Positions 1,563 through 29,614 of a stretch of DNA of 64,000 nt are shown here, piece by piece. Every line of letters begins with the position of its first letter. Position 1 is the first letter of the stretch. The notes beneath the pieces are model-generated. The model saw only the letters and a program-made list of their open reading frames with translations, had not been told where the DNA came from and made no database searches. This DNA is from Rhizophagus irregularis (lineage: Eukaryota > Glomeromycota > Glomeromycetes > Glomerales > Glomeraceae): positions 3,617,501-3,681,500 of the forward strand of contig NC_089438.1 of NCBI RefSeq assembly GCF_026210795.1, given 5' to 3'. The translations under genes and the position numbers were made by a program.

Positions 1563-2986
1563 ACCTGAATTAAATTGAAATGATGAAAAATCTGAAGAAT
1601 TTATTGGTTCCGGAAGATTTTTGAAATTTAAAAGTCTACTGGCATAAATTGCTTGAGTATAAGTTTTAATACCTTCAGACTTATTTCCATTTGATCTATT
1701 TTTCAATTTTCTTTTTCTGATTTTATCTTATTCTTCCATTTGAGAACGGATTTCATCATCTTTATGTTCTTTTTCTTCCAGTTTCTTTAATATATGATAT
1801 AACTCCTTAGCATTTGGTCTATTTTTTGCTTCAGCATCCCAACATTTCATAATTAAATCCACAAGAAATTTTTGGAATATCTTTAGAAATTTTCGGTCTA
1901 AATCCTTTACATATTTCAACAGCTAAAGTATAATCATGGGGAATATTATTAAAAGGAATTTCTTCAGAACGAAACTCATTCATAATTATTTCAAATGAAT
2001 AAATATCAGCTGCTTTTACATATTGATATCCACGTAAAACTTCAGGTTCATATAAGGTAATACTCCATAAACTCCTTTTTTATCTGATCTTTCTTCGTTA
2101 TTTGATAGTTGACACATTCCTAAATCACTTATGAATATAGCTGACATATTAAATAAAATATTATCTGAATGAAAGCCTTTATGAACTTTTTTCAGCATTA
2201 TGGATATCTAACAGATCGCTTGCAATTTTTAACAATTTATTAATTTTGTTGTTAATATCATTTTCATTTTTCAGGCTTATTTAGATAAAAAGTTCTCAAA
2301 TTTCCATATATACTTGAGTTATTCCATAGCAGAAAACAATATCCCAAACATAAATCGGTAGATGAGATTTGATCTAATTATAAAAATTTTTTGAAAAGAA
2401 ATAAAATTTATTAAAAAATAAAATAACCAATTAAAATGTATTACAAAATAAATTAATTTTTTATTTGATTACCTATTATTTAAAAAATCTGTACTAATAT
2501 CCAAAGAATTATCCAAACTTTTTAATGCTAATTTTTATCCTGTAAATCTGTACCATTTTTGATTTTCATTATTCCAATAACTAATAAATCCTTCAGGCCA
2601 TTCAGCTGAATAAATTTTACCGAAGCCTCCTCTGTAAATATAAGTAACATTTGTAACATTTTGAAATTTCCCAAAATGTATAAAAGGTATCCATTCAAGA
2701 CATTTTATATTATGTAGAGCATTGAGTTGTGAATGTTGTATTAATTCATCAATATCTTTATTTCCACTAGTCCAATTTTTAAATTTCTTTAAAATCTTTG
2801 TGCATCACAAGGTTGACACCAATAACTTCCTGTGCCAGGTTCATTACATACTCCACATATACCATGTACTTTTTTTCTTTTTTCCAAGTCTTCCATATAA
2901 ATTACTTTATCATCAATCTCTTCTGATAGGGTACTAATTGAATCAACAGAAGAAATTTTAACATGTACATTTGAATAAAAGAACAA
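1563..2986 (-). pseudogene. Broken TKL-like protein kinase gene
   Basis: Read on the minus strand, the pieces follow the same order as the intact kinases here. They are a Cys-rich segment (CGVCNEPGTGSYWCQPC), the WTSGN motif, a glycine loop (RGGFGKIYSAEW), a preserved LALKSL lysine strand, HSDN and ISDLG in the catalytic region, a C-lobe ending in MKCWDAEAKNRPNAKEL, and the family tail YASRLLNFKNLPEP. They cannot be joined in one frame. There is a stop (TGA on the sense strand read as TG-stop) just before the lysine strand near 2545, a frameshift before the HxDN segment near 2195, another after GVLPYM near 2045, and further breaks near 1870 and 1730. HSDN also lacks the usual HRDLHSGN spacing. 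This is a decayed copy; the pieces are too diverged for an assembly error to be the simplest explanation. Confidence 0.85.
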
Positions 2987-3168
2987 AAAAATATATTCTT
3001 TATTTATTAAACAGTTAAATCATATTATTTGTAATAAATTATAAAGTGAAATTACATTTACCTGATATTTATTAAGATTGACATTTTTCAATAAATTTCT
3101 TTTCTTTATATAATTTATTTGACACTACTAGCGTCTCTTGACCTGAATATTTTTTTCAACAATTCCAT

Positions 3169-3386
3169 ACTAAACCCCGAGCTAAGCGAGCTATACATAA
3201 AGAGGTAGGGTAAGGGTTTGCGTAGAATTGACCGAAATAATCATGTAGATCTTTCCTTTTATAGATAATACCGGCCAGACCTGACTGGCATTATCATAAT
3301 TCCGGCCCTGAAAAAATGCGTAGAGCTAATAGTAATTTTTTTTTTGGCAGCACCTTACCTCTATATATAAAGCTTGGGGTCCTAGT
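3169..3386. repeat. MITE-like inverted-repeat element
   Basis: About 218 bp with imperfect terminal inverted repeats: the left end ACTAAACCCCGAGCT pairs with the right end AGCTTGGGGTCCTAGT, and an inner ATA-AAGAGGTA block pairs with its complement on the right. Its interior shares two blocks with 27184-27343 (an AATAATCATGTA.ATCTTTCC block and ATAATTCCGGCCCTGAAAAA), so it belongs to a dispersed non-autonomous family. No coding capacity. Confidence 0.6.
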
Positions 3387-6235
3387 TAACTACTAATAAC
3401 AATAATTTTAAATATATAATATATACTATATTTTATAATGTATATACCTTAGAATTTATAAAATTTACTTTTATTAACGGAATTCACGGAAATAAATTAT
3501 ATTTATGCATGACAGATGTATTATGTAAATCCCATGTTTACACAATTTTGTCAGGCGTTGTTAATTGATTTCATATTTTGATACTCAAAACATTAATATT
3601 TTGTGTTACATGATGGCTGAATAAATATTTTCTGTTAAAAAAAAATAATAATGTGGCGCGTAAAGAGTACAGTGACTGCATTGTATAAAAAATAATTTAC
3701 AATATTTAAACTTAATATAAATAAAATGTATATAAATTTAATTTCCAGATTATTGTGCATATAATTTTTGCTATTTCATAAAAAATAAAAAATTTTTTTT
3801 TAGGTGGCTTCGTAAATAAATCGTAATGCAAATAATTTAATTTATTATTTTAAGATCCGAATATCAGTTATCCGATTTGAATAAATATAGAGATCTGGAT
3901 GATAGCTGAACAGATCGTAACATTAATTTTTTTTTAAAAAATAAACTTAAAACATAAAGCAAATCTTTTCTATTAATCTATTATTGATCATAATTTGAAA
4001 ATGTGACTCTTCCGAAGGAAGATACTATATCTAAATAATACGGGTAATACTAATACGGTACACAAAATATTTTGTATATCTAATACTATACAAGTTAGTA
4101 ATAACGGGGTTCTAAATAGTGCAATATCTATTGATACAAATATTATATGAGCGGGTATTTTTATCAAAAAGTTTAAAATAAATATAAAAATTTGTTCATC
4201 CAATCTCAAAGACATAATACAGTAATATAAATAATATCTATTGTATGTACAACAATAATCAAATGATCAAATGATGAAAATCATTCATCGGAATCTCAAA
4301 TTGTGATTATGATCAATAGATAGGCTTGTGTTTAATACTTTGTGCGCGCCGCGACCATAACAATAACTCAAAACAAATTTTCCCATGAAATATTTTCTAT
4401 AAAAGCATAAAAAATTATTTTTTCCTACACAAAATTTCTTTTACACGTATTTTTTTTTTAAATACTTATAGTTTTGTATCTTAGTCTCTAACATTTATCA
4501 ATAACTTGTAGCTTTTTTATTAACTCTCCGTTAAGAAACATAAATATCTTATGCTTTCGGAAACTCCTAGTCAAGCTGTTTTTGCCTATTAAGTTCTATT
4601 TAGAGATAAAAATTATTAAAATAACATATCCTAAGCAACTTCTAGTTAAAAGTGTCGTGAGTTGTGGATAGTTACCAGACGGTTATTCAGCATTTTTCTA
4701 AAAACCGAAAAAAACGTCAAGCCTGAAACGTCAAGCCTGAATAGTAGTTATTTTTAATATTTTGGTAAGTGGAAATGGCTAAGCTGGGATGTATAAGGGA
4801 CAAGTGCACCTAGAGTGTTTTGGTTATCCTCCTCTTCTAGAAGTTTGGTTACCTTCAATGAGAATAAAAATATCTCAAGCTATGTCGCAGACTTCTGTAT
4901 GTGGGGCCCGTCCCTTTGGTGGTTGGTCTCATGTCTTATTATCAATGTGACAGTACCTCTGCACGAGTTTGATCACTCACGATATTCGTTAATGTCAGTT
5001 GATAGTAGGCATGGGGGCTTGAATCTGTCTTTTCTGCAAAGCTTACTTAGAGTACTCGAGTCTTCTAACCTATTTTATTATATATTTTATATATTTTAGA
5101 TTTCATTCTCTCCTGTTAGATTTAGCTTTTACTAGTAAGAATTGATATATTGTAAGTTTTTTTTGTAATAATTATAGTAAAATCCAAACTGTTTATTATT
5201 ATAATAGTATTTGCTTATACATTGGTGACTTAAATTACAAAAAATTGTGATATAATAAGTTAATGTTGTTTGATTGAAATTATTATAAGTTTACTAAAAT
5301 TTATATACATAAATATCTATTATATTCCTCACTCATGATTATATTGATCATATGATCACACATAAAATTAAGAGTATGTCAATTTTTACATGTATTATAT
5401 ACATAATTAATTTATTAATAATAATCTTATTAATAAAAATTTTTTAAAATATGGCACATTTTTATTGGATAGTGCGGTTTTTAATTTACAGTATGTGACG
5501 TTTACAACTAACTTGATAAATCACAAATTTTTCGTCCTGAATTTTTTTTATTTCTTAATACAATAAGAAATACTAATTTAAAATTTTTGTTGATGACTCA
5601 CTTACAGAAATAAAAAATCTGAAGCAAAATAATATTAACTACTGTAGATATGATACATGAATTTATATATAATTTACAGTTAACTGCATACTATATGGAT
5701 ATTTTATATAAAAAATTATGTACCATTTAAATTTACGTATAATTTATTTATACTAGACAAATAAACATTATCATTATGCAAATAATTTTATATACTAATT
5801 AAATATATATAAAATTCTTTACTACATATTTTATTTAAAATTTTCATATAAACTCATATAGATTTATGTATTTTGTTTAATTTTAAATAAGTGTAAAAAT
5901 GTTTCTTAGATATAACTTTGCACTAACATATTTGTATATTTTGGTTAGTCAATTTCATATAAAGTATACATTAAAATAATTAAAAAGTAAATTCCATTAA
6001 GAGAAACAAATGGATATTTGTATATTAAATTGCATGATATATCATTTCGATCAAAAAAAAAAATCCAATAATTAAAGAAAGAGCAAAAAGTCGTTGTTAA
6101 AAAAATTCTAAGAAAATAATCAATTATAAAATTAGCAAAATTGATGTTCAACTACAAAAATCAATAACTGAAATACCGCAATACATTTCATCAAAGTATA
6201 CGAATTTACTAAATTAGTTCAAATATTGATGATAT
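3387..6235. other. Noncoding stretch; possible unidentified repeat at 4660-5060
   Basis: No gene can be supported. A block from about 4660 to 5060 is less AT-rich than its surroundings and contains a perfect 14-bp tandem duplication (4712-4725 and 4726-4739). It has an open frame of 94 codons (4815-5099) without recognisable domains, so I regard it as a fragment of an unidentified repeat and not as a gene. Confidence 0.4.
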
Positions 6236-6378: not shown

Positions 6379-7911
6379 ATGTCATGTTCAAAAATATTTT
6401 CAGGAGATTTACCTGAATTAATATATGAAATCATCAAAAATTTTCAGAATGATTATTCAACCTTACATTCATGTGTTTTAGTTAATAGATTATGGTGTCG
6501 TTTAGCGATTCCATTATTATGGGAAAATCCATTTTCAATTACTACCGGAAATTATAATTTTATTGAAGTTTACTTATATAATTTGAATGATTATTTAAAA
6601 ACAAAAATTAATAATTATCAAATTATTAATAATTTATTACCTTCGAATACACTTTTCAATTATCCTAGTTTTATAAAATATTTGAACATGTGTAATATTA
6701 CTCTTTCTATTGAGAGGTGGTTAGAAGCTAACAATAAAACTTCAAATGCAGCAGTATCCGAATTTAAAAGATTAATTAATATGTCACTAGTTAAATTATT
6801 TATTGAAAATGAAGTAAATTTACATACTTTTAAAATTGAGATAAACAACATACATTACTATGATACCATTTATGACATTTTGGAGATAATTTTACAAAAT
6901 TTTAATTTCATTCATAATATTAGAAATTTAAACCTTTCTATTGTAAATAATCATTGTAAAAGTATGTTAATTAAAAATCGTATATCACAAATAATTAACT
7001 TACATCAAAATCTTAAAAGAATTTTATTTGGTAATAATACTAACTTATCTTTATATCAATCATTATTATTATCAAAAGAATTTAATTGTTCAAATACTTT
7101 AAATACAATCATTTTTTATTATGTCAATTTTAAAGATATAAATAATTTAGTTAAAGTATTTGAAAATTTAAATGTTTTAGAATCTGTTCATATTATTTAT
7201 TGTAATTCTTTAGGTAGTTTTATTCAACAAATTACTAACTTAACCAAACCACTTAAACTAAAATCTTTATTTATGCTCATGGCTTTACAAATCGATTTAT
7301 TACAATCATTATTACAAAAATATGGGAATTATTTAGAAAATTTCAAATGCGGGAGTTACGGATTTGTTCAACAACGGCACTTAGAATTAATTATGAAATA
7401 TTGCAAAAATATCAAATTTCTTGACTTATGTGGAATTGAAAGACACATTACTTCTCTAATATTTGATTTGATTGAAAATATTAACCAAAATCTTAATTAT
7501 CTTTCAATCAATGTAGGAGATTGTCAAAATGAGCTAATATTACGAAATTTAGGATTAATACTCCCTTCTAAACTTGAATATTTAAGTTTGGCTCTTCGCA
7601 TGATTAATACAAATGATTTTGAAGTATTCCTAAAAGATTCTCAAGATACTTTCTTTAAAAAATTGTTAATTAATAATTTGATAGGAGGATATAGTGATGA
7701 TATTGATATTTTACCCTATATAAAAGAATATATTATGAAGAAGAAAAGAGTCCAATATTTGGCAATTAAGAATACTTTATACAATAGGGTAGATGTAGAT
7801 TTGTCTAATTTTAAAGATGAAGTGAATGAATTTAAGTTACATAATATTAAAGTTCTAAAATATGATAATTTATCTACTGATATTTATAGATTTGTAAATG
7901 AAATTGATTAA
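6379..7911 (+). CDS. F-box protein, paralogue 1 of 4
   Basis: Single-exon gene of 510 residues. An F-box lies at about residues 8-50 (GDLPELIYEIIKNF, then LHSCVLVNRLWCRLAIPLLW), in the form usual for F-box proteins of this fungal group. The rest is a Leu/Ile/Asn-rich region with LRR-like periodicity, e.g. ENLNVLESVHIIYC and KYCKNIKFLDLCGI, ending in IYRFVNEID. By family knowledge it should bind Skp1 and act as the substrate receptor of an SCF ubiquitin ligase; the substrate is unknown. The ATG is fixed by identity of the N-terminus and leader in all four copies. Compared with paralogues 2 and 4 it lacks a roughly 10-residue insertion near residue 125. It shares long blocks with paralogue 4, its closest relative here. 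Confidence 0.85.
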   Translation: MSCSKIFSGDLPELIYEIIKNFQNDYSTLHSCVLVNRLWCRLAIPLLWENPFSITTGNYNFIEVYLYNLNDYLKTKINNYQIINNLLPSNTLFNYPSFIKYLNMCNITLSIERWLEANNKTSNAAVSEFKRLINMSLVKLFIENEVNLHTFKIEINNIHYYDTIYDILEIILQNFNFIHNIRNLNLSIVNNHCKSMLIKNRISQIINLHQNLKRILFGNNTNLSLYQSLLLSKEFNCSNTLNTIIFYYVNFKDINNLVKVFENLNVLESVHIIYCNSLGSFIQQITNLTKPLKLKSLFMLMALQIDLLQSLLQKYGNYLENFKCGSYGFVQQRHLELIMKYCKNIKFLDLCGIERHITSLIFDLIENINQNLNYLSINVGDCQNELILRNLGLILPSKLEYLSLALRMINTNDFEVFLKDSQDTFFKKLLINNLIGGYSDDIDILPYIKEYIMKKKRVQYLAIKNTLYNRVDVDLSNFKDEVNEFKLHNIKVLKYDNLSTDIYRFVNEID

Positions 7912-11125: not shown

Positions 11126-12712
11126 ATGTCATGTTCAAAAATATTATCAGGAGATTTACATGAATTAGTATATGAAATCATCAAAAATTTTCAGAATGAT
11201 TATTCAACCTTACATTCATGTGTTTTAGTAAATAGATTATGGTGTCGTTTAGCGATTCCATTACTATGGGAAAATCCATTTTCAATTACTACCGGAAATT
11301 ATAATTTTATTGAAGTTTACTTATATAATTTGGATGATTATTTAAAAACAAAAATAAATGATTATCAAATTATTAATTATTTATTACCTTCGAATACACT
11401 TTTCAATTATCCTAGTTTTATAAGATATTTGAACATATGTAATGTTACTTTTTCTATTGAGAAGTGGTTAGAAGCTAATGATAAAACTTCAAATTCAGCA
11501 ATAGATTTGGTACATAATATAATTTTAACATCAGTATCCGAATTTAAAAAATTAATTAATATGTCAATAGTCAAATTATTTATTGAAAATGAAGTAAATT
11601 TACATACTTTTAAAATTGAGATAAACAACAAACATTTTGATTATTTCATTTATAATGACATTTTAGAGATAATTTTACAAAATCCAAATTTCATTCATAA
11701 TATTAGAAATTTAAACCTTTCTGTTGTAAAGAATCATTGTAAAAGTATGTTACTAATTAAAAATCAAATATCACAAATAATTAATTTACATCAAAATCTT
11801 AAATTAATTTTATTTGGTTATAATAACTTAACTTTATATCAATCATTACTATTATCAAAAGAATTTAATTGTTCAAATACTTTAAATACAATCATTTTTT
11901 ATTATGTCAATTTTAATGGTATAAATAATTTAGTTAAAGCATTTGAAAATTTAAATGTTTTAGAATCTGTTCATATCATTTATTGTTCTTCTTTAGATGG
12001 TTTTATTCAACAAATTATTAACTTAACCAAACCATTTAAACTAAAATCTCTATTTATGAGTATGAATTTGCAAATTGATTATTTACAATCATTATTACAA
12101 AAATATGGGAATTATTTAGAAAATTTCAGATATGAGAGTTACAGATTTGGAGTTCAACAACAATACTTAGAATTAATTATAAAATATTGCAGAAATATCA
12201 AATTTCTCGGCTTAAATAGAATTGAAAGTCACGTTAATTATCTAATGTTTAGATTAATTGAAAATATTAAACAAAATCTTAATCATCTTTCAATTAATGT
12301 AGTGCATTATCAAGATGATTTAATATTACGAAATTTAGGACAAATACTCCCATCTAAACTTGAATCTTTAAGTTTGGTTCTTTACATGATTAAAACAAAT
12401 GATTTTGAAGTATTCCTAAAAAATTCTCAAGATACTTTCTTTAAGAAATTGTCAATTAATAATTTGGTGCAAGGATATAGTGATGATATTGATATTTTAC
12501 CTTATATAAAAAAATATATTATGAAGAAGAAAAGGGTCAAATATTTAGCTATTAAGAATACTTCATCTACTTTTAGTATTAGTAAAGGTAAAGATGTAGA
12601 TTTGTCTAATTTAAAAGATGAAGTGAATGAATTTAAGTTATATAATATTAAAGTTCTAAAATATGTTAATATATGTACTGATATTTATAGATTTGTAAAT
12701 GAAATTGATTAA
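11126..12712 (+). CDS. F-box protein, paralogue 2 of 4
   Basis: Single-exon gene of 528 residues, the longest of the four copies. The N-terminal F-box (residues about 8-50) is nearly identical to paralogue 1, with Leu to His at one position (GDLHELVYEIIKNF). The LRR-like body follows the same order of blocks (ENLNVLESVHIIYC, KYCRNIKFLGLNRI, YIKKYIMKKKRVKYLAIKNT) and ends IYRFVNEID. It carries an extra segment near residue 125 (DLVHNIILTS) that paralogue 1 lacks, and a longer Ser/Thr stretch near residue 485. The presumed role is SCF substrate receptor, by family. Reading frame, promoter and 3' flank are all retained, so it is likely expressed. Confidence 0.85.
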   Translation: MSCSKILSGDLHELVYEIIKNFQNDYSTLHSCVLVNRLWCRLAIPLLWENPFSITTGNYNFIEVYLYNLDDYLKTKINDYQIINYLLPSNTLFNYPSFIRYLNICNVTFSIEKWLEANDKTSNSAIDLVHNIILTSVSEFKKLINMSIVKLFIENEVNLHTFKIEINNKHFDYFIYNDILEIILQNPNFIHNIRNLNLSVVKNHCKSMLLIKNQISQIINLHQNLKLILFGYNNLTLYQSLLLSKEFNCSNTLNTIIFYYVNFNGINNLVKAFENLNVLESVHIIYCSSLDGFIQQIINLTKPFKLKSLFMSMNLQIDYLQSLLQKYGNYLENFRYESYRFGVQQQYLELIIKYCRNIKFLGLNRIESHVNYLMFRLIENIKQNLNHLSINVVHYQDDLILRNLGQILPSKLESLSLVLYMIKTNDFEVFLKNSQDTFFKKLSINNLVQGYSDDIDILPYIKKYIMKKKRVKYLAIKNTSSTFSISKGKDVDLSNLKDEVNEFKLYNIKVLKYVNICTDIYRFVNEID

Positions 12713-15533: not shown

Positions 15534-17064
15534 TCACAAAAATCTAAATTTAAAGATATAAATCAATAATATTTTACTTAAAAAGTGCATATTATAATTA
15601 TATAATATTACCTCTTAAAATCTAAATCAGCTAATTGAGAATCATGATAGGTTGCTAAATAAAAAAAATAATAGGTTAATTATCAATAAATTTATAATAA
15701 ACTTTAAATCAATAGTACCTTCATTAATTTTGTCCTCTTGAAGATATGAACTAATAATAGAGGAATTAATGGGTTTTGATAGGTTATTAAAAGTGAGTTC
15801 TCGGCTGGTATATATAGCATCAGGATCTTTTTCGTAAAAGGTTGAAATATTTGGTATTTCTATATCAGCCTCTTCAAGTATGGCTTTAATTTCTTTTCCA
15901 TTATAACTAAAATTTTCTCCAAAGATAATAGATCTATGCCAGAGTTCCATTATATCGAATAATTCATCAGCTGTTGGTCTTTTAATTGAATTAGCATTTG
16001 TACATCTATATGCTAATTTCTTATAAACCTCAGGTGTTCCTTTCCCAAATTCAGGTCTGAGTCCATCACATATAGCTAATGCTAAGTGTAAGTCATGTTT
16101 TCTATTGTAAAATGGTGGTTTTCCAAATGATAACTCGATCATAATTATACCAAAACTATAAATATCAGATGACGAAGTGTATGGCTCTTTGTTTAAAACT
16201 TCTGGGGCAATATATGGCAATACACCATACACTTTATTATCTGATTTTTGTTCATTTGCTGGCACAGATAATCCAAAATCTGAAATATATGATAATCTAT
16301 CTTTTAGCAATATATTTCCACTATGTAGATCTTTATGAAAATATCCCAATTTATGCATATTGCTAAGATCAACAACCAAATCATATAACAACAAAATTTT
16401 ATCTTTCCATAAAATACTATTAAATTTATATGAGAGAGCATTTCTCAAATTTCCATTATTTGCAAATTCTAAAATCATTGCAAATTCATTAGTCGTTGGA
16501 TCTCTGGTTATTCCATAAAAATCTAAATAATTAAAGCTTTCTAAATAAAAATTCCAATATATTTCAAGCTGTTATTTAATATAAGAATTAAATAAAAATA
16601 ATTAATTGTCATTAGATATTGAAATATATATAGTATATGTACATATATATACAGCATGTATATAAATACCTCATTTAAATATTTAGATGATATATTCTGT
16701 GATCCATTTAACTTTTTCAAAGCAACTTTTGTAGGCTTAGATTCTAATTTTTTCCAGCTCCCATCATTTAGTTTTTCATATTTTGATTTACCATCAATCC
16801 ATATTGCAGAATATACTTTGGCAAATCCACCCTTGCCAATTTGGTCTATATCTGTAAATCTATTAAATGATACCCACTCAAGAAACTTAGAATTTGAACT
16901 TTGTCTTGCATTATAAATTGAACCTTTAATAAATTTATCAATGCTTAAATTTCCACTAGTCCATCCTTCTATCATACAGTATGGGTCACATTCTTTGCAC
17001 CATAATTTTTCAATAAATAGTTTATGACAATAAGAACATATCTTATTATCAGCCTGATTATTTT
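15534..17064 (-). other. Kinase module 3 (catalytic motifs complete)
   Basis: Glycine loop GKGGFAKVY, lysine strand VALKKL, catalytic loop HKDLHSGN, magnesium motif DFG, APE motif (YIAPEVLNKEPYT), and the C-lobe Arg (KRPTADEL) are all present. It is the only module of the three predicted to be active. Its Cys-rich head is CSYCHKLFIEKLWCKEC. The last two small exons (43 and 10 nt) give a tail with YHDSQLADLDFKRFL and the stop. Confidence 0.75.
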
Positions 17065-19855
17065 CTGATATATGACAAAAGTAACAAAGAAATATTAATA
17101 TTAATATAAATTAAATAAATAAAATATGATATAATACCTTTATTATTTGTTCCTTTAAGATATGAAATAACAATAGATGAATTAACAGGTTTTGGCAAAT
17201 TGCTAAATGTAAATACTTGACTAGTATATTTAGCATCTGGATTCTTTTCATATAAAGTTGAAATATTTGGTATTTCTTTATCAGCATTCTCAAACATAAC
17301 TTCGATTTCTTTTCCTATATATCCTAAAACTTTACCATTAAGAATATCATTCCAAAAGTCTAAAATTTGATATAATTCATCAGTTTTTGGTCTTTCAATT
17401 GAATTAGCATTCATACATTTATATGCTAATTCCTTATAAATTTCTGGAGTTCCTTTTTCAAATTCTGGTCTAAGTCCAATACATATATCTGTTGCTAAAT
17501 TTGAGTCATGACTTCTATTATAATATGGCGGCTTTCCAGATGATAATTCAGTCATAACTATACCAAAACTATAAATATCAGAAAAAAATGTATATGGATC
17601 TCCATTTAAAACTTCTGGAGCGATATATGGTAAAAGACCTAATTTTTGTTCATTTGCCTGCTCAAACAATTCAAAATTTAAAATCCAAGAATAATCACCA
17701 CAATGGAGAACTTTACAAAAATAGTTTAGTTCATGTAAATATTTAAGATAAAATGCCAAATTCTGCAATAAACAAATTTTATCCTTCCATAAAATGTTCT
17801 TAAAATCATTTGTAAGAACATTTCTCAAACTTTTTAAATTTGTCAATTCTATTACTATCATAATTTCTTTAGTTTTTGGATTTTTAGTAATTCCATAAAA
17901 TTTAAATGTAGTATTCACTTTATACTTTTTACTTAAATTCCAGTAAAATTTAAGCTAAAATCATAAAAAGTGTTATAAGAGCTGAAGTAACCAAAATTGA
18001 AAAGTACATATAAATTTAATGAAACATACCTCATTTAAACATTTAGGTGACATATTCTGTGATTCATCTAAACTTTTCAAAATAATTTCCATAGATTTAA
18101 ATTCATATTTTTTCCAACTTTCATTATTAAATTCTGATTTACCATCTATCCATGTTGCAGTATACACTTTTGCTAATTCGTCTTCACAAATTTGTTTTAT
18201 ACCTGTAAATCTATCAAATACTATCCATTCAAGAAAGCAATAATTATAATTTCTTGCGTTGTACATTGTATCTTTTATAAACTTATCAATATCAGGAATT
18301 CCACTGGTCCATCCACCAATCATATAATGAGGATCGCATTCATTACACCATAATTCTTCAGTAATTGATTTATTACAATAAGAACAATTTTCATACTTGT
18401 CTGATATACCTTTACAGCGTGATATAACAAAAAATATTAATTATCATTTTAACTATAAGATTAACATTCAATTTTTAACTAACCTTCATTGTTCATATTT
18501 TCTTCAAAATAGGAATTAGTAATAGATGAATTACTAGGATTTGGTAATTTGCTAAATGAAAATTCTTGACTAATATATATATTAGAATGATTCTTTCCAT
18601 ATGTAGATGGAATCTCTCGTAGTTCTTTATTATCTTCTTCAAATATAGCTTCAACTTTACTTCCTTTATAACTAAACATTTCACCATTAATAGAATGATA
18701 CCAAAATATTAAAATTTTACTTAATTCATCTGCTTTTGGTCTTTGTTTAGGATTAGAATTCATACATCTATAAGCTAGATTCTTATAAATTTCAGGAGTT
18801 CCTTTTTCAAATTCTGGTCTGAGTCCATTACATATATCTAATGCCAAATTCGAATCGTATTCTCTATCATAAAAAGGTGGTTTTCCAGATGATAATTCGG
18901 ACATAATTATACCAAAACTATAAATATCTGAAAATAGTGTGTATGGTTTTCCATTTAAAACTTCAGGAGCAATATATGGTAATACACCATATATTTTATT
19001 ATCAGATTTTTGTTTATTTGCTGGTCCATTTAATTCAAAATCCGAAATATAAGTATTAAAACATTTAAAATAATCATCATAACGGAATAAAATATTTCCA
19101 CTATGAAGATTTTTGTGGGAATATCCTAATTTGTGTAAGTTATTAAGCCCCAAAATTAAATGACCTAAAATTCTAATTTTATCATCCCAAAGAATCATAA
19201 ATTCATTTAAAAAAATACTTTTCAGATTTCCTCCACTTGCAAATTCAATAATCATCATAAATTCTTTAGTTACTGGATCTTTAGTCATTCCATAAAATCC
19301 CAAAGAAAAATTTTCTTTTAAATAAACATTCCAATGTATTTTAAGCTATAAAAATTTTTAAGTAAAATTGACGAAAAATAATTTAAATTTTAAAATAAAA
19401 AAAAATAATAAACATACCTCATTTAAATATTCAATTGACAATTCATGTGAACCATTCAATCTTTTCAAAGCAACTTTAATTGGCTTAGGATCTAATTTTT
19501 TCCAATTTCCATATTCATATTTGTAATCTGCCTTACCATCTATCCATGTTGCAGAATAAACTTTGGAAAATCCGCCTTCGCCAATTTGTTCTACATTTAT
19601 AAACCTATCAAATGGTACCCATTCAAGCCATGTTCCATATTTTCTTGAGTACATCGTATCTTTAATGAATTTATCAATATCAAGATTTTCGCTTGTCCAT
19701 CCTTCAATTATTTTGTATGGGTCACATTTTTTACACCATAATTCTTCAATAAAAGGTTGATTACAGCAAGAACAATATTTATGGCTGGAGTCTATGTCTG
19801 AGACACTTAATTTTGACTCTATTGAAACCTGAGTTTTATTATTTAATATGCTCAT
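15534..19855 (-). CDS. Protein with three tandem TKL-like kinase modules (one gene model)
   Basis: Proposed exons, in transcript order: 19418-19855, 18484-19345, 18030-18409, 17138-17954, 16670-17064, 15719-16568, 15612-15654 and 15534-15543. All have GT-AG borders and join without a stop into 1264 residues. Each module has a Cys-rich head (such as CSCCNQPFIEELWCKKC), the GWTSGN/DIDKFIK motif, a kinase domain and a tail ending NEG or NKG. The gaps between modules are 74 and 73 bp, too short for a terminator plus promoter, and the heads of modules 2 and 3 have no start codon of their own before the Cys motif. Both inter-module introns are phase 1 and in frame. Module 3 keeps all catalytic motifs; modules 1 and 2 do not. 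The role is presumably signalling; the substrate is unknown. A conventional annotation might split this into three genes. Confidence 0.7.
17138..18409 (-). other. Kinase module 2 (degenerate pseudokinase)
   Basis: The glycine loop is lost (ICEDELAKVY), and the lysine strand is altered but keeps the Lys (IILKSL). The catalytic loop is replaced by CKVLHCGD, the DFG position reads NFE, and the activation segment is shortened. The C-lobe is nevertheless intact and open (YIAPEVLNGDPYT, SDIYSFGIVMTEL, ERPKTDEL). Loss is confined to catalytic motifs while the frame stays open over two exons. This suggests selection for a non-catalytic role, or a recent loss. Confidence 0.75.
18484..19855 (-). other. 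Kinase module 1 (probable pseudokinase)
   Basis: The glycine loop (GEGGFSKVY) and the lysine strand (VALKRL) are intact. The catalytic loop reads HKNLHSGN, with Asn in place of the proton-accepting Asp of HRD, and the magnesium motif reads DFE in place of DFG. ATP may still bind, but phosphotransfer should be weak or absent. The C-lobe (YIAPEVLNGKPYT, SDIYSFGIIMSEL, RPKADEL) is well preserved, which fits a scaffold or allosteric partner better than a decaying gene. Confidence 0.75.
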
Positions 19856-19859
19856 TTTT

Positions 19860-20205
19860 TTTAAATGGATTTATTTTTACGGGTAATCGGGTAGTGAAAC
19901 AAAAAAGGTTACCAGAATTTAAAAAAATGATCATCGTGATTTACACGCCATTTAGGGCTGAATTTTGTACTCTGCTGTACAAATCAAATTCGGTTATGCT
20001 AATTTTCGCCCGGTTCCCATTGGATCCGACGTAGAATTAGCTCGGAATTCTTAATAATAACGGCAGAAGACACGCTTTATTGATTTATATAAAATTTTAA
20101 TTTTTTTCTAGTTGCATAAACAAAGGTAGTAAAGGTAAAATAAAAATCTAGTGATCTGCACAATACATTTTTACCGGATGCAGTTATTTAATAAAACTGC
20201 GCCTA
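19860..20205. other. Spacer between the kinase locus (minus) and F-box gene 3 (plus)
   Basis: A divergent intergenic region, about 480 bp from start codon to start codon. No gene. It contains a GGGTAATCGGGTA motif near 19880, and from about 20151 the extended upstream homology to F-box gene 2 (TGATCTGCACA, ACTGCGCCTAA). Confidence 0.45.
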
Positions 20206-20338: not shown

Positions 20339-21895
20339 ATGTCATGTTCAAAAATATTTTTAGGAGATTTACCTGAATTAGTATATGGAATCATCAAAAA
20401 TTTTCAGAATGATTATTCAACCTTACACTCATGTGTTTTAGTTAATAGATTATGGTGTCGTTTGGCAATTCCATTATTATGGGAAAATCCATTTTTAACT
20501 CCTACCGGAAATTATAATTTTATTGAAGTTTACTTGTATAATTTGAATGATTGTTTAAAAACTAAAATAAATGATTATCAAATTATTGATCATTTATTAC
20601 CTTCGAATACACTTTTCAATTATCCTAGTTTTATAAGATATTTGGACGTATTTAAAATTACTCATTATATTGAAATGTGGTTAGAAACTAATGATAAAAC
20701 TTCAAATTTAGTTTTTCAATCAGTATATGAATTTAAAGAATTAATTAGTATGTCATTAATTAAATTATTTATTGATAATGAAATAAATTTACATACTCTT
20801 AAAATTACTATTAGTACTTATTTTATTGCATATATTAATAATATTCTTGAGATAATTTTGAAAAATCCAAACTTAATTAACAATATTAAGAATTTTGAAT
20901 TTTCTATTTTAACTTCTAATACGCTAATTGAATATCGTATATCACAAATAATTAATTCACATCAAAATCTTAAAAGAATTTTATTAGGTCATGATAGTTT
21001 ATCTTTATATCAATCATTATTATTATCAAAAGAATCTAATTGTTCAAATACCTTAAGCACAATCATTTTCTATTATGTCAATTTTAATGATAGAATTAAT
21101 AATTTAGTTAAAGTAATTGAAAATTTAAATGTTTTAGAATCTGTTCATATCATTTATTGTTTTTCTTTAGATAGTTTTATTCAACAAATTATTAACTTAA
21201 GCAAACCATTTAAACTAAAATCTTTATTTATAACCGGGAATTTTCAAATTGATTTATTACAATCATTATTACAAAAATATGGGAATTATTTAGAAAATTT
21301 TGGATACGGGGATTATTTAGAAGATATCTGTTATGAATTTGATCGGTCATTAACACAACAATCATTAGAATTAACTATAAAATATTGCAGAAATATCAAA
21401 TTTCTTGATTTATATAGAATTGGAAGCCAAATTACTTCTCAAGTGTTCGGTTTAATTGAAAATATCAAACAAAATCTTAATCATCTTTCAATCAATGTAG
21501 GGAATGGTAATAACGAGTTAATATTACAAAATTTAGGACAAATACTTCCTTCTAGGCTTGAATATTTAAGTTTGGTTCTTCACATTAAAACAAGTGATTT
21601 TGAAGTATTCTTAAAAAATTCTCAAAATACTTTGGTTGAGAAATTGGTAATTAATAATATGGTGGAAGGATTAATAAATATTTTACCTTATATAAAAGAA
21701 CATATTATGAAGAAGAAAAGAGTCAAATATTTGGCTATTAAGACTACTTTATCCATTATTGATTTTAATAGGAACGATGAAGATTTGTTTGATTCGAAAG
21801 AACAAGTGAAGGAATTTAAGTTACATAATATTAAAGTTCTAAAATATGCTAATTTATCTACTGGTATTTACAGATTTGTAAATGAAATTGATTAA
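20339..21895 (+). CDS. F-box protein, paralogue 3 of 4
   Basis: Single-exon gene of 518 residues, the most diverged copy. The F-box (GDLPELVYGIIKNF, LHSCVLVNRLWCRLAIPLLW) is kept almost unchanged, whereas the body differs from the others by many substitutions and by an insertion near residue 325 (GDYLEDICYEFDRS). Shared blocks include KSLFITGNFQIDLLQSLL, KYCRNIKFLDLYRI and the end IYRFVNEID. Conservation of the F-box against a variable LRR-like body is the pattern expected for substrate receptors that diversify in what they recognise. The stop is followed after about a dozen bases by an inserted repeat element that separates the gene from its ancestral 3' flank. Confidence 0.85.
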   Translation: MSCSKIFLGDLPELVYGIIKNFQNDYSTLHSCVLVNRLWCRLAIPLLWENPFLTPTGNYNFIEVYLYNLNDCLKTKINDYQIIDHLLPSNTLFNYPSFIRYLDVFKITHYIEMWLETNDKTSNLVFQSVYEFKELISMSLIKLFIDNEINLHTLKITISTYFIAYINNILEIILKNPNLINNIKNFEFSILTSNTLIEYRISQIINSHQNLKRILLGHDSLSLYQSLLLSKESNCSNTLSTIIFYYVNFNDRINNLVKVIENLNVLESVHIIYCFSLDSFIQQIINLSKPFKLKSLFITGNFQIDLLQSLLQKYGNYLENFGYGDYLEDICYEFDRSLTQQSLELTIKYCRNIKFLDLYRIGSQITSQVFGLIENIKQNLNHLSINVGNGNNELILQNLGQILPSRLEYLSLVLHIKTSDFEVFLKNSQNTLVEKLVINNMVEGLINILPYIKEHIMKKKRVKYLAIKTTLSIIDFNRNDEDLFDSKEQVKEFKLHNIKVLKYANLSTGIYRFVNEID

Positions 21896-25075: not shown

Positions 25076-26770
25076 ATGGAAGAATTTATGCTCACTGATG
25101 ATGTATTTGAGCAAATAAAAGATTTTGTCTATAATAGTCTAACTGAAGAACAAAGTTTGCTAATTGATAAGCTGATATTAAATGAAGAATTAAAATTACG
25201 TTATAAAGGAAATGGTTTATGCAAAGATTGTAAGCAACCTAGAGCTTCTTATTATTGGTGTCAATGTAAATTTCAACAAAATTTCAAAAACTGGACCAGT
25301 GGAAATTATAAAGTTGATAAGTTTATTCAAAAAACACAACTTAAAGCTAAAGATTATAATTGTGTTTTAGAATGGATTGAATATGATAGATTTGAAAATG
25401 TTGAATACTTGGCAAAAGGAGGGTTTGGAACTATTTATAAAGCAATTTGGAAGGATGGATGGATATACAGTTGGGATTTTGAAAATAATAAATGGAGAAG
25501 AAGTAAAAATTATTGTAGGGATTATGAGAATTTTCCTGTTGTGTTAAAATGCTTACATAATTCTCAAGATATTACATCCGATTTTTTAGGAGAAGTAAGT
25601 TATTTATTATTATATAATTTACAAGATATTATTATAAATGTTAAACTGTCCATTAATTATTGTTATTATGGATTCTTTTTTTTTTTTTAGATTGAAGCCC
25701 ATATTATGTTTTTTTCAAAAAGTGTATTTAATATAACACCCTGTTATGGCATTACTAAGGATCCAGAATCTAAAAATTTTATGTTAGTAATGGGATATGT
25801 AATAAATGGTAGTTTAAGACAACATTTAAATAATAGTTTTAATTCAACAAAATGGGTTGAAAAATTGGAAACTTTACAAGATATTGCACAAGGCCTCGTT
25901 TATATTCATGAAAATGGATCAATTCATCGTGATTTTCATTGTGGTAATATATTAAAAGATAGCCGCTATACTTTCATTACTGATTTTGGATTATGTCGAC
26001 CAGTAAATGTAAAACCATCTCAAAATGAATGTAAAGAATTATATGGGGTATTACCCTATGTAGCACCAGAAGTTTTAAGAGGAAAAGAATATACTCAAGA
26101 AAGTGATATATATGGATTTGGAATTATTGCATATGAAGTCTGTACAGGGCTTCCTCCTTATCATGATATTGTTCATGATAAATTCTTAGCTATTAGTATT
26201 TGTCAAGGACTTAGGCCAAAATCAAATTATAAAATTCCTCAATTAATTCTAAACATAATTAAACAATGTTGGGATGCTGATCCTTTAAAACGACCTAAAG
26301 CAAAAGAAATAAAAGATTTATTATATGAATTACATTTTTCAAGTAAATTTCGGAGTGATCGTGAAATCAATAAGCAAATTGAAGACGCAGATAAAATTAA
26401 TGAGAAGTTAACATCATCATCATCATTATATACTGGTCCTACTCTTTCATATACTACAAATCCTCAAGCAGTTTACACAAGTAGACTTTTGGATTTTAAA
26501 AATCTTCCAAAACCAAAAAATTCTATTGATAACAAGGATGATGATGATTCATTTGGAGAATATTCAGGTAATTAATTTCCCAATTTATTTACAAAAGAAA
26601 ATTCTTCAAATACTTCATTGATATATATAATTATTTTTTTTATTATAGAATCAATAGAAGTGATAGATTTTACTAAACTAAACCTAGGTATTAACTAATT
26701 ACATGATTTATTTTATTAATAATATTATTATTTAATAATTTATTTTTTACTTATAGATAAAAGTAACTGA
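25076..26770 (+). CDS. TKL-like protein kinase, complete and apparently active
   Basis: Four exons: 25076-25594, 25691-26567, 26649-26687 and 26757-26770 (GT-AG introns), giving 482 residues. In order there is a short helical N-terminus, a Cys-rich head (CKDCKQPRASYYWCQC, about 58-73), NWTSGN/KVDKFIQ, a glycine loop AKGGFGTIY (about 115), the lysine strand VVLKCL, the catalytic loop HRDFHCGN, DFGL, YVAPEVLRGKEYT and the C-lobe QCWDADPLKRPKAKEI. The tail contains YTSRLLDFKNLPKPKNS and ends SIEVIDFTKLNLDKSN. All residues needed for catalysis are visible. The Cys-rich head plus WTSGN plus kinase layout matches the other kinases of this window. Exon 1 ends exactly before the alpha-C region, as in the minus-strand modules, so gene structure is conserved. 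Confidence 0.88.
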
Positions 26771-28042: not shown

Positions 28043-29614
28043 ATGTCATGTTCAAAAATATTTTCAGGAGATTTACCTGAATTAATATATGAAATCATCA
28101 AAAATTTTCAGAATGATTATTCAACCTTACATTCATGTATTTTAGTTAATAGATTATGGTGTCGTCTAGCGATCCCATTATTATGGGAAAATCCATTTTC
28201 AATTACTACCGGAAATTATAATTTTATTGAAGTTTACTTATATAATTTAAATGATTATTTAAAAACAAAAATAAATGATTATCAAATTATTAATTATTTA
28301 TTACCTTCAAATACACTTTTTAATTATCCTAGTTTTATAAAATATTTGAACATATATAAAATTGCTCTTTCTATTGAGAGGTGGTTAAAAGCTAATTATA
28401 AAGCTTCAAATTCAGTAAATTTGGTAACATATAATTCAATTTTAGCATCGGTATTTGAATTTGAAAAATTAATTAATATGTCACTAATTAAATTATTTAT
28501 TGAAAATGAAGTAAATTTACATACTTTGGAAATTGGGATAAGCGCAGCTTTCTACAAATATTATAATGTTTATGTTGATATTTCTGAGATAATTTTACAA
28601 AATCCTAATTTCATTCATAATATTAGAAATTTAAGCCTTTCTGCTGAAAATAATCATTGTAAAAATGCGTTAATTAAAAATTATATATCACAAATAATTG
28701 GCTTACATCAAAATCTTAAAAGAATTTTATTTGGTCATAAGAGTTTATCTTTGTATCAATCATTAGTATTATCAAAAGAATTTAATTGCTCAAATACCTT
28801 AAATACAATCATTTTTTGTCGAGTCAGTTTTAATGGTATAAATAATTTAGTTAATGTATTTGAAAATTTAAATGTTTTAGAATCTGTTCATATCATTTAT
28901 TGTTCTACTTTAGATAATTTTATTCAACAAATTACTAACTTAACCAAACCACTTAAACTAAAATCTTTATTTATAAGGGTGAATCTGCCAACTGATTCAT
29001 TACAATCATTATTACAAAAATATGGGAATTATTTAGAAAATTTCAAATGCGGGAGTTACGAATTTGAAGTTCAACAACGGCACTTAGAATTAATTATGAA
29101 ATATTGCATAAATATCAAATTTCTTGACTTATATGGAATTGAAAGTCACATTACTTCTAAAATGTTTGGTTTGATTGAAAATATTAACCAAAGTCTTAAT
29201 TATCTTTCAATCAATGTAGGAAATTGTCAAAATGAGCTAATATTACAAAATTTAGGACAAATACTCCCTTCTAAACTTGAATATTTAAGTTTGGCTCTTC
29301 GCTTGATTAAAGTAAATGATTTTGAAGTATTCTTAAAAAATTCTCAAGATACTTTCTTTAAAAAATTTTTAATTAGTAATTTGGTACGAGAATATAGTGA
29401 TGATATTGATATTTTACCTTATATAAAAGAATATATTATGAAGAAGAAAAGAGTCCAATATTTGGCAATTAAGAATACTATACGCAATAGGGCAGATGTA
29501 AATTTGTCTAATTTTAAAGATGAAGTGAAGGAATTTAAGTTACATAATATTATAGTTCTAAAATATATTGATTTATTTACTGATGTTAATAGATTTATAA
29601 ATGAAATTGATTAA
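28043..29614 (+). CDS. F-box protein, paralogue 4 of 4
   Basis: Single-exon gene of 523 residues. The F-box is identical or nearly identical to paralogue 1 (GDLPELIYEIIKNF, NRLWCRLAIPLLWENPF). The body keeps ENLNVLESVHIIYC, KYCINIKFLDLYGI and the long block around YIKEYIMKKKRVQYLAIKNT; the C-terminus changes to VNRFINEID. It has a roughly 10-residue segment (LVTYNSILAS) near residue 128, like paralogue 2 and unlike paralogue 1, although elsewhere it is closest to paralogue 1. That mosaic pattern suggests recombination or gene conversion among copies. The presumed function is SCF substrate receptor. Confidence 0.85.
   Translation: MSCSKIFSGDLPELIYEIIKNFQNDYSTLHSCILVNRLWCRLAIPLLWENPFSITTGNYNFIEVYLYNLNDYLKTKINDYQIINYLLPSNTLFNYPSFIKYLNIYKIALSIERWLKANYKASNSVNLVTYNSILASVFEFEKLINMSLIKLFIENEVNLHTLEIGISAAFYKYYNVYVDISEIILQNPNFIHNIRNLSLSAENNHCKNALIKNYISQIIGLHQNLKRILFGHKSLSLYQSLVLSKEFNCSNTLNTIIFCRVSFNGINNLVNVFENLNVLESVHIIYCSTLDNFIQQITNLTKPLKLKSLFIRVNLPTDSLQSLLQKYGNYLENFKCGSYEFEVQQRHLELIMKYCINIKFLDLYGIESHITSKMFGLIENINQSLNYLSINVGNCQNELILQNLGQILPSKLEYLSLALRLIKVNDFEVFLKNSQDTFFKKFLISNLVREYSDDIDILPYIKEYIMKKKRVQYLAIKNTIRNRADVNLSNFKDEVKEFKLHNIIVLKYIDLFTDVNRFINEID

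Follow-up and report, generated by a model that had tools for sequence, protein, structure and literature searches.

A predicted pseudokinase-pseudokinase-kinase gene and its fused relatives in the genome of Rhizophagus irregularis

What is known of how a kinase turns into a regulatory pseudokinase within its own polypeptide comes mostly from ancient, completed examples such as JAK and GCN2. In HER3/ErbB3, which acts as a receptor partner in trans, the catalytic Asp is an Asn. According to the portions of the literature available to us, the JH2 domain of JAK carries HGN at the catalytic site, HER3 binds ATP at a nucleotide site resembling that of JAK JH2, and both JAK2 JH2 and HER3 retain weak activity in vitro. 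Plant tandem kinase-pseudokinases (TKPs; WTK1/Yr15, RPG1) are described, in the accessible part of one report, as polyphyletic tandem kinases derived from duplication or fusion, in which one domain is dead, D166 is among the least conserved sites of that domain and no further conserved domain is present; in WTK1 the first domain is the intact one (PMC6170490). For Rhizophagus irregularis, the accessible parts of two reports give a total of 2,533 kinases (PMC10234402) and note a tyrosine-kinase-like expansion (PMC4219462), and fused multi-module genes go unmentioned in those parts. A literature search, with most subscription journals outside its coverage, returned no report of tandem kinase genes in Rhizophagus or other fungi among the matches listed.

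We have analysed a 64,000-nucleotide stretch of R. irregularis DNA, referred to as the window, in which the minus-strand span 19855-15534 is described by one 8-exon gene model of 3,795 nt and 1,264 aa, based on predicted splicing. The reading frame of the model is unbroken, with a single stop codon at its end, and encodes three modules in series, each consisting of a Cys head and a kinase, with phase-1 introns between modules. This open model, together with the same module order at two loci on contig C28, supports the earlier proposal that the three modules lie head to tail in one gene. The predicted features, in window coordinates, are as follows.

19418..19855, minus strand: exon 1, ATG, module 1 Cys head and N-lobe with intact Gly-loop and VALK
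19724..19774, minus strand: Cys head 1, CSCCNQPFIEELWCKKC
18484..19345, minus strand: exon 2, remaining module 1 kinase (HKN, DFE); Pfam PF00069, 1.1e-25
19094..19117 (C10:3636594-3636617), minus strand: module 1 catalytic loop, HKNLHSGN, Asp to Asn
18410..18483, minus strand: inter-module intron 1, 74 bp, phase 1, GTTAGT...AAAG
18030..18409, minus strand: exon 3, module 2 Cys head and N-lobe, Gly-loop lost (ICEDELAK), without in-frame ATG before the Cys head
18336..18386, minus strand: Cys head 2, CSYCNKSITEELWCNEC
17138..17954, minus strand: exon 4, remaining module 2 pseudokinase (CKV, NFE); Pfam PF07714, 2.9e-19
17694..17717, minus strand: module 2 catalytic loop, CKVLHCGD
17065..17137, minus strand: inter-module intron 2, 73 bp, phase 1, GTATTA...TCAG
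16670..17064, minus strand: exon 5, module 3 Cys head and N-lobe, intact Gly-loop, without in-frame ATG before the Cys head
16988..17038, minus strand: Cys head 3, CSYCHKLFIEKLWCKEC
15719..16568, minus strand: exon 6, remaining module 3 kinase with HKD, DFG and the full catalytic motif set; Pfam PF00069, 7.7e-30
16314..16337, minus strand: module 3 catalytic loop, HKDLHSGN
15612..15654, minus strand: exon 7, terminal exon DSQLADLDFKR, one copy, behind the last module only
15534..15543, minus strand: exon 8, final codons and stop (FL*)

The initial annotation had read the gaps of 74 and 73 bp as phase-1 introns with GT...AG borders and no stop. Length, phase and borders stand, but gap 1 is stop-free only if spliced, as in the unspliced form a TAG follows directly on the codon that straddles the exon boundary. 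Two acceptors are candidates in gap 1. The AAAG acceptor (exon from 18409), which was the original choice, is usable in the window and in both paralogous three-module loci, L001 and L002, while the alternative is missing in L002.

The genome searched comprises 146.7 Mb in 32 contigs and represents one genome of the lineage. At least seven fused loci were detected: the window, two three-module loci on C28 and four more with two to four modules. This count is a lower bound because each genome search scored no more than its top candidates (137, 136 and 134); spacing was computed from the 137-candidate set, and the other two sets were judged by eye. Of the seven loci, the window, L001 and L002 were modelled as complete genes. 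L001 (C28:1549 kb) is open and encodes 1,291 aa, and L002 (C28:1561 kb) carries one stop in module 3. The identical module order and matching intron borders at these two loci indicate that the layout in the window is beyond chance. That the pattern recurs at further fused loci elsewhere in this genome goes beyond what had originally been noted.

The catalytic motifs in the window read as first reported: IGEGGFSKV, VALK, HKN and DFE in module 1, ICEDELAKV, IILK, CKV and NFE in module 2, and IGKGGFAKV, VALK, HKD and DFG in module 3. If a pseudokinase is defined by loss of at least one of the VAIK Lys, HRD Asp and DFG Asp, module 1 lacks the HRD Asp, module 2 lacks both the HRD Asp and the DFG Asp, and module 3 has lost none. 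DFE in module 1 is unique to the window, as L001, L002 and L011 have DFG at this position. The C-lobe exons of all three modules score above the Pfam kinase gathering cut-offs (PF07714/PF00069), and the three N-lobe exons taken alone gave no Pfam match. Scanned against Pfam at E 0.01, the six large exons matched kinases plus one sub-threshold ABC1, with no match to FERM or SH2, and the Cys head likewise has no Pfam match. In an AlphaFold model of a single-gene relative, block means are mostly >80 in the kinase core and pLDDT is <60 in the Cys head, for which no fold is claimed. The best sequence match is RSK2. Foldseek places a JAK2 structure first, and its top matches comprise JAK structures and also LIMK1, FGFR2 and SYK, with TMq ∼0.45. 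JAK membership by fold was set aside, as the query was the single-gene model with an intron read through and other kinases score similarly. Of the likeness to JAK suggested at the outset, the layout is retained, a pseudokinase, with an Asn as in the HGN of JH2, preceding a kinase, but family membership is not supported, there being no FERM or SH2 match.

Loss of the catalytic Asp recurs across the fused loci. In the seven loci, Asn occupies the catalytic position in 10 of 12 full upstream modules, the other two being altered otherwise, and the Asp is kept in all seven last modules (Asn in 0/7). Module 1 has HKN in the window as well as in L001, L002 and L011; the module 2 catalytic loop differs among loci (CKV in the window, HEN and YKD elsewhere), a variation which fits drift at that site. 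Genome-wide, the motif has Asn at 48 of 1,279 sites, the ten fused-locus upstream sites included; the Asp form was counted at 1,231 sites, 100 of which are among the matches listed. Fisher tests gave p ∼1e-13 and 7e-11, values which overstate the case because related modules are each counted singly. The idea that catalytic Asn is confined to fused genes proved false, as 38 HxN sites lie outside fused loci. Each of these was inspected from 0.9 kb ahead of the site to 2.3 kb past it, and no second module was present within ∼2.3 kb behind any, and at the one site checked further upstream, L060 (C28:1116070), no other module was found.

Selection was estimated as dN/dS with a pairwise codon-model script written for this analysis. 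For the window-L001, window-L002 and L001-L002 pairs, respectively, values were 0.15, 0.19 and 0.24 in module 1, 0.24, 0.23 and 0.42 in module 2, and 0.18, 0.19 and 0.52 in module 3, the L001-L002 comparison thus being looser (0.24-0.52). Module 1 copies from five loci, compared in ten pairs, gave 0.15-0.24. As dN/dS of the dead modules (0.15-0.24, window versus C28) resembles that of the active module (0.18-0.19), the dead modules are constrained, in agreement with the earlier suggestion that they are not decaying. The values for modules 1 and 2 lie far below 1, the level named at the outset as one that would refute this suggestion. We consider it likely that the window gene encodes a tandem pseudokinase-pseudokinase-kinase in which the dead upstream modules are kept under selection and most probably regulate or scaffold the last kinase. 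Splicing across the modules and inactivity of the upstream modules are predictions, and some activity may persist in module 1 because JAK2 JH2, which has the same Asp to Asn change, and HER3 retain weak activity in vitro.

The strongest competing explanation, which we nevertheless regard as unlikely, accepts fusion but gives the upstream copies no part in regulation: a single active site would suffice for the chain, catalysis elsewhere would drift, and the fold would be kept only since misfolding harms the chain. Asp to Asn needs a single base change, the module 2 catalytic loop varies among loci and three of the seven fused loci are visibly damaged, all as expected under such redundancy. Any module could then survive, yet the survivor is the last one in 7/7 loci. 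These represent three to four independent fusions, for which the chance of such polarity is ∼1/54, or 1/18 if L003 shares the origin of the window lineage. The similar dN/dS of dead and live modules also argues against redundancy.

A single origin of all upstream modules was rejected (AU p 0.001) in a tree that requires six state changes and whose single genes are mostly the closest matches to the live module 3. The second module of L011 is placed beside the dead second modules with support of 91/95. dS at this module is 2.1-2.6, versus 0.6-0.7 for module 1 of L011 against other loci, and windowed comparison indicates a mosaic, the head being closest to module 2 and the kinase core closest to module 3. 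The tree is thus blurred by exchange of sequence among modules through recombination. The proposal that a module dead in the three-module loci lives where it is last, in L011, was dropped in view of the high dS and the mosaic structure, which also slightly lowered our confidence in the broader family proposal given below.

Fusion itself is predicted from sequence, and HxN kinases with no second module within ∼2.3 kb behind them exist at the 38 sites outside fused loci, so that an alternative of three separate but tightly spaced genes, of which two would encode pseudokinases, has to be weighed; we judge this very improbable. Modules 2 and 3 of the window have no in-frame ATG of their own, the terminal exons of the family occur behind module 3 and not behind modules 1 or 2, and the gaps are 73-74 bp. 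Across the seven fused loci, an in-frame Met precedes the Cys head in 7/7 first modules, as in 12/12 single genes inspected, and is missing in 10 of 13 downstream modules, the remaining three being accounted for. The terminal-exon motif follows 11 of 12 single genes and the last modules (5/7 by pattern, two by eye: L003, and L011 behind its insertion) but 0/13 non-last modules, two chance matches within the next module excluded. In L003, module 1 runs into module 2 in a single 407-aa frame with no break. A frame-keeping phase-1 intron is possible at 11/11 junctions examined, a count made with no shuffled control and with more than one solution at seven of them. Among the 137 scored relatives, spacing is 510-808 bp inside fused loci (1,204 with a half module) and at least 1,421 bp elsewhere. 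In two adjacent-gene controls, separate neighbours lie ∼0.9-1.0 kb apart and all four genes have their own in-frame Met and catalytic Asp, but the terminal-exon pattern was found in only one of the four, which weakens this marker. The distribution of Met codons and terminal exons, the conserved layout and the unbroken L003 frame thus point to fusion into one gene, as originally proposed.

A decaying tandem array, with the gene or at least its upstream modules caught early as pseudogenes, is scarcely credible: damage does occur (a stop in the last module of L002, a one-base frame shift within the first exon of module 2 in L010, an insertion in the last module of L011), as does an orphan module-1 copy on C16, L066, which ends abruptly after its kinase exon, but the window and L001 are open over ∼1,270 codons at dS of 0.59-0.73 per module, and for the window versus either C28 locus dN/dS is 0.15-0.24 and omega=1 is rejected (2dlnL 43-89).

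Under the regulatory reading, a single-kinase gene would have duplicated and its copies fused head to tail. The anatomy of the modules shows that upstream copies have lost their terminal exons and downstream copies their start codon, and the former phase-1 donor that closed the kinase exon would now splice into the next module. In the sequence pattern, purifying selection preserves the fold of upstream modules although their catalytic residues have gone, most often by catalytic Asp to Asn, and the last module alone keeps these residues. The upstream pseudokinases most probably contact the last kinase, or the partners of that kinase, by way of kinase-kinase contacts and of the three Cys heads, and thereby set its activity or target, as JAK JH2 does for JH1.

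One genome thus holds seven fused loci, as a lower bound, and at least three independent fusions, beside single-gene relatives that are still live. The Asp to Asn step has been taken again and again among these loci, one of which, L011, resembles a recombinant between modules. Occurring together, these make the order of events and its polarity testable. More tentatively, and with considerable doubt, we suggest a fungal tandem pseudokinase-kinase family which evolved apart from JAKs and plant TKPs by a route that can be repeated, in which after each fusion the non-last modules lose the catalytic Asp and turn into cis-acting regulators or decoys of the last. With modules also reshuffled between loci, the genome would then display the birth of pseudokinases as a natural series, possibly for partner or non-self recognition in this mycorrhizal fungus. 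With the fused loci described here, fungi would join animals and plants as users of the tandem kinase-pseudokinase layout.

Of the described systems, HER3/ErbB3 differs from the fungal gene in not being a tandem kinase. Like plant TKPs, the fungal gene has tandem kinase domains, at least one of them dead, and no other known domain, the Cys head being unnamed in Pfam; it differs in occurring in a fungal genome, in having two to four modules per locus and in that the intact module is the last, whereas in WTK1 it is the first. As in the Janus kinases (JH2-JH1), the gene model and motifs place a pseudokinase upstream of a predicted active kinase in one chain, with the catalytic Asp replaced by Asn (HGN in JAK; the window has HKN in its module 1). 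Unlike Janus kinases, the fungal gene has no FERM or SH2 match, the fungal loci have as many as three modules ahead of the last, every one of them bearing a Cys head, and the modules belong to one family which also occurs as single genes, the close relatives of the window modules being single kinases of the same genome and the module 3 kinase exon sharing ∼60-69% identity with the kinase exon of close single genes.

The gene at 19855-15534 on the reverse strand of the window, described in the initial annotation as a single locus, is one member of a predicted fungal tandem pseudokinase-kinase family that is larger than that locus and whose upstream modules have been inactivated recurrently. It consists of one module present three times, in each case a Cys head (CxxC-x9-CxxC) ahead of a kinase domain that one phase-0 intron interrupts. 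Translation of its eight exons yields 1,264 aa with a sole stop at the end, and the C-lobe exons have kinase matches in Pfam. Translation and motif comparison agree with the coordinates and motif calls made earlier for the modules, numbered from the 5' end:

Module 1: glycine loop intact, VALK, HKN, DFE
Module 2: ICEDELAK, IILK, CKV, NFE
Module 3: glycine loop intact, VALK, HKD, DFG

HKN and DFE are both confirmed in module 1, although DFE is private to the window copy. The first inter-module gap had been called stop-free, which is correct if it is spliced but not in the unspliced reading, where a TAG directly follows the codon spanning the exon end. A 25-bp stretch at 19941-19965, ~90-110 bp upstream of the ATG, has a pattern occurring only twice in the genome, the other match lying at the corresponding place upstream of the paralogous locus L001; it may be a conserved promoter piece or the trace of a copied segment. 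Other frames in the window are:

6379-7911, forward: MSCSKI frame
11126-12712, forward: MSCSKI frame
20339-21895, forward: MSCSKI frame
28043-29614, forward: MSCSKI frame
25706-26575, forward: kinase frame
62794-63510, reverse: kinase frame

The four MSCSKI frames, named for their start, are similar (510-528 aa); the single frame tested has an F-box-like match that is weak and below threshold. Both kinase frames carry HRD, with DFG in one and DLG in the other.

A genome search revealed two more loci with the identical three-module order, L001 and L002, both on contig C28 and 82 and 85% identical, respectively, to the window across module 2 and its preceding intron. The borders of all seven introns match in the three-way alignment, except for one alternative acceptor lost in L002, and similarity fades beyond the gene limits in the part of the alignment shown. 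The L001 frame is open (1,291 aa) and L002 has one stop, located in module 3. Fused loci were recognised by kinase-exon spacing among 137 scored relatives, in which the 12 shortest gaps (510-1,204 bp) all fall within seven loci and the remaining gaps are 1,421 bp or more:

Window gene: three modules
L001, C28, 1549-1553 kb: three modules, order as in the window
L002, C28, 1561-1565 kb: three modules, order as in the window
L003: three modules
L010: three full modules and one N-lobe fragment
L011: two modules
L005: two modules

All seven first modules have an in-frame Met ahead of the Cys head, as do 12 of 12 single genes examined, a set without L017, whose start falls at the locus edge; among downstream modules this Met is missing in 10 of 13. 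The exceptions are module 2 of L002, with its Met within the putative intron, module 2 of L003, reached by an unbroken frame, and module 4 of L010, behind the open frame of the N-lobe fragment. By pattern, a short terminal exon of the DSQL type is present behind 11 of 12 single genes and five of seven last modules; in the remaining two it is visible in diverged form (L003) or lies behind an insertion (L011). It follows none of the 13 non-last modules once two matches by chance within the exon of the following module are discounted. A phase-1 intron keeping the frame open is possible at all 11 module junctions examined, in a search with no shuffled control alongside that gave more than one solution at seven of them; in nine the donor falls exactly at the normal kinase-exon end, and in L010 it lies 3 and 12 bases beyond that end. 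This set leaves out module 3-4 of L010 and module 1-2 of L003, the latter because its 407-aa frame needs no intron. In two pairs of separate neighbours used as controls (L062, L063), ~0.9-1.0 kb apart, all four genes carry the catalytic Asp and an in-frame Met of their own, and only one shows the terminal-exon pattern. Combined with the paralogous loci, the Met, terminal-exon and junction-intron patterns are strong sequence evidence for fused genes and support the proposal of three modules in one gene.

The catalytic Asp is changed to Asn in 10 of the 12 full upstream modules of the seven loci; the other two have CKV (window) and YKD with the glycine loop lost and DFK (L002). Asp and DFG are kept in every last module (7/7). 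Genome-wide, the pattern HxN[LF]H(S/T/C)GN occurs at 48 sites, 10 of them upstream modules of fused loci, and its Asp form at 1,231. No second module is found within about 2.3 kb downstream of any of the other 38, all examined. These 38 (L024-L061) represent about 3% of motif sites in the genome, and a stop is visible in three of them in excerpts around the site. Outside the fused loci the HxN motif is present in 3 of 118 scored relatives, and L066 is one more, its HKN lying in a variant loop missed by the pattern. Inactive modules are in excess in fused genes, well above the genome rate even counting independent fusions only: HxN marks about 4% of motif sites, whereas every one of the three to four fusions includes one or more such modules. 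Some upstream modules retain all the remaining motifs, as in module 1 of both L011 and L005, where glycine loop, A-L-K and DFG are intact. For four independent fusions, the sole survivor would be last every time with a chance of 1/3 x 1/3 x 1/3 x 1/2 = 1/54, or of 1/18 in case L003 and the window's lineage have a common origin (82/84); this polarity, the last module as survivor, is suggestive.

Decay of the inactive modules, which the initial annotation had doubted, would be expressed as dN/dS near 1, and this was looked for and not seen. In the comparison of the window with L001 and L002, respectively, module 1 has dN/dS of 0.15 and 0.19, module 2 of 0.24 and 0.23, and module 3 (HKD/DFG) of 0.18 and 0.19; dS is 0.44-0.73 and omega = 1 is rejected (2dlnL 43-89). 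The younger pair, L001-L002, is looser (0.24, 0.42 and 0.52 for modules 1, 2 and 3; 2dlnL 34, 11.5 and 4.9), most so in module 3, where the L002 stop sits. Values are 0.15-0.24 for module 1 copies of five loci (ten pairs), 0.13-0.20 for the L010 modules (three pairs), 0.19-0.27 for L005 with its neighbour L004 (three pairs), 0.10-0.11 for module 2 versus L011, at saturated dS, and 0.22-0.34 for three single relatives active by motif. HKN is common to module 1 of the window, L001, L002, L011 and the orphan copy L066; most simply, therefore, the substitutions among these copies postdate Asp loss.

Damage, seen in three of the seven loci (L002, L010, L011), counts against maintenance of the inactive modules; no break is seen in the pieces used of L003 and L005. 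Damaged and isolated pieces are:

L011 ~835-1347 (G000:C28:1630.3-1630.8 kb): insertion splitting the C-terminal tail of the second module
L010 ~2950-3478 and 4533-4869: reduced module and module 2 frame change
L066 (G000:C16:3230000-3236200), 898-2077: orphan module 1 copy

The insertion, roughly 510 bp with inverted ends, resembles a small non-autonomous DNA transposon, and the kinase tail and terminal exon of L011 continue beyond it. The frame change in L010 is of one base inside the first exon of module 2 (matches in two frames); between the inactive and active modules of L010 sits the fragment, a Cys head and N-lobe that has lost the VALK Lys and the glycine loop. L066, which also has HKN, is 77-78% identical to window module 1 and ends abruptly after the kinase exon, joined to unrelated DNA, with no second module within 4 kb.

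A tree was built from 33 modules, leaving out the HRD and DFG columns and the L010 fragment. In it, modules 1, 2 and 3 of the window, L001 and L002 form three separate clades with full support, the module 1 clade including that of L011. The three-module gene therefore predates its copying between C10, the contig of the window, and C28. The AU test rejects a single clade of all upstream modules (p 0.001), and six changes are required to account for the Asp/Asn/other states. Both inactive modules of L010 are sister to its own active one (97/94), and the inactive module of L005 is placed among active single genes (96/83). The tree also places the second module of L011 as an active counterpart of inactive module 2 (91/95), a reading dropped on dS and mosaic evidence: dS is 2.1-2.6 against module 2 elsewhere, compared with 0.6-0.7 between L011 module 1 and the others, and residues 1-80 are closest to module 2 or single genes, residues 81-240 to module 3. 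The most fitting reading of this module (L011 1342-2517) is recombination that joined a module 2 head to a module 3-like core. The mosaic appears as if recombination within a three-module gene took out the inactive core.

Asp to Asn at the catalytic position removes the catalytic base, and ATP binding can remain. PMC6287396 and PMC4718504 give HGN as the motif of JAK JH2 domains, which bind ATP, and describe the HER3 nucleotide site as similar to JH2. Module 1 may bind nucleotide, because it retains its glycine loop, the VALK motif and HSGN with its Asn; module 2 probably does not, because the glycine loop and DFG Asp are lost. Modules 1 and 2 would exert their effect by contacting module 3 or partners, and the Cys heads may provide additional binding parts; the Cys head has pLDDT under 60 in the predicted model of a single-gene relative. 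Among solved-structure sequences module 3 matches RSK2 first, with CaMKII, MLT/ZAK, BRAF and EphA2 lower, and module 1 matches MAP3K12 first.

The window gene shares with JAKs the pseudokinase-before-kinase order and the Asp to Asn change. JAKs have FERM and SH2 domains, whereas neither is found in the window gene by Pfam. The accessible portions of the open-access literature describe a large kinase repertoire in R. irregularis and relatives and homologues of the MLKL pseudokinase family in Glomeromycotina, and fused kinases are unmentioned there. Plant TKPs are described, in the source portions available, as having multiple origins through duplication or fusion (PMC6170490; also PMC10260399); the fungal fused loci fit the loose definition, likewise having several origins by duplication or fusion. 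In WTK1, a plant TKP, the active domain is described as first, whereas in the fungal loci the last module is intact.
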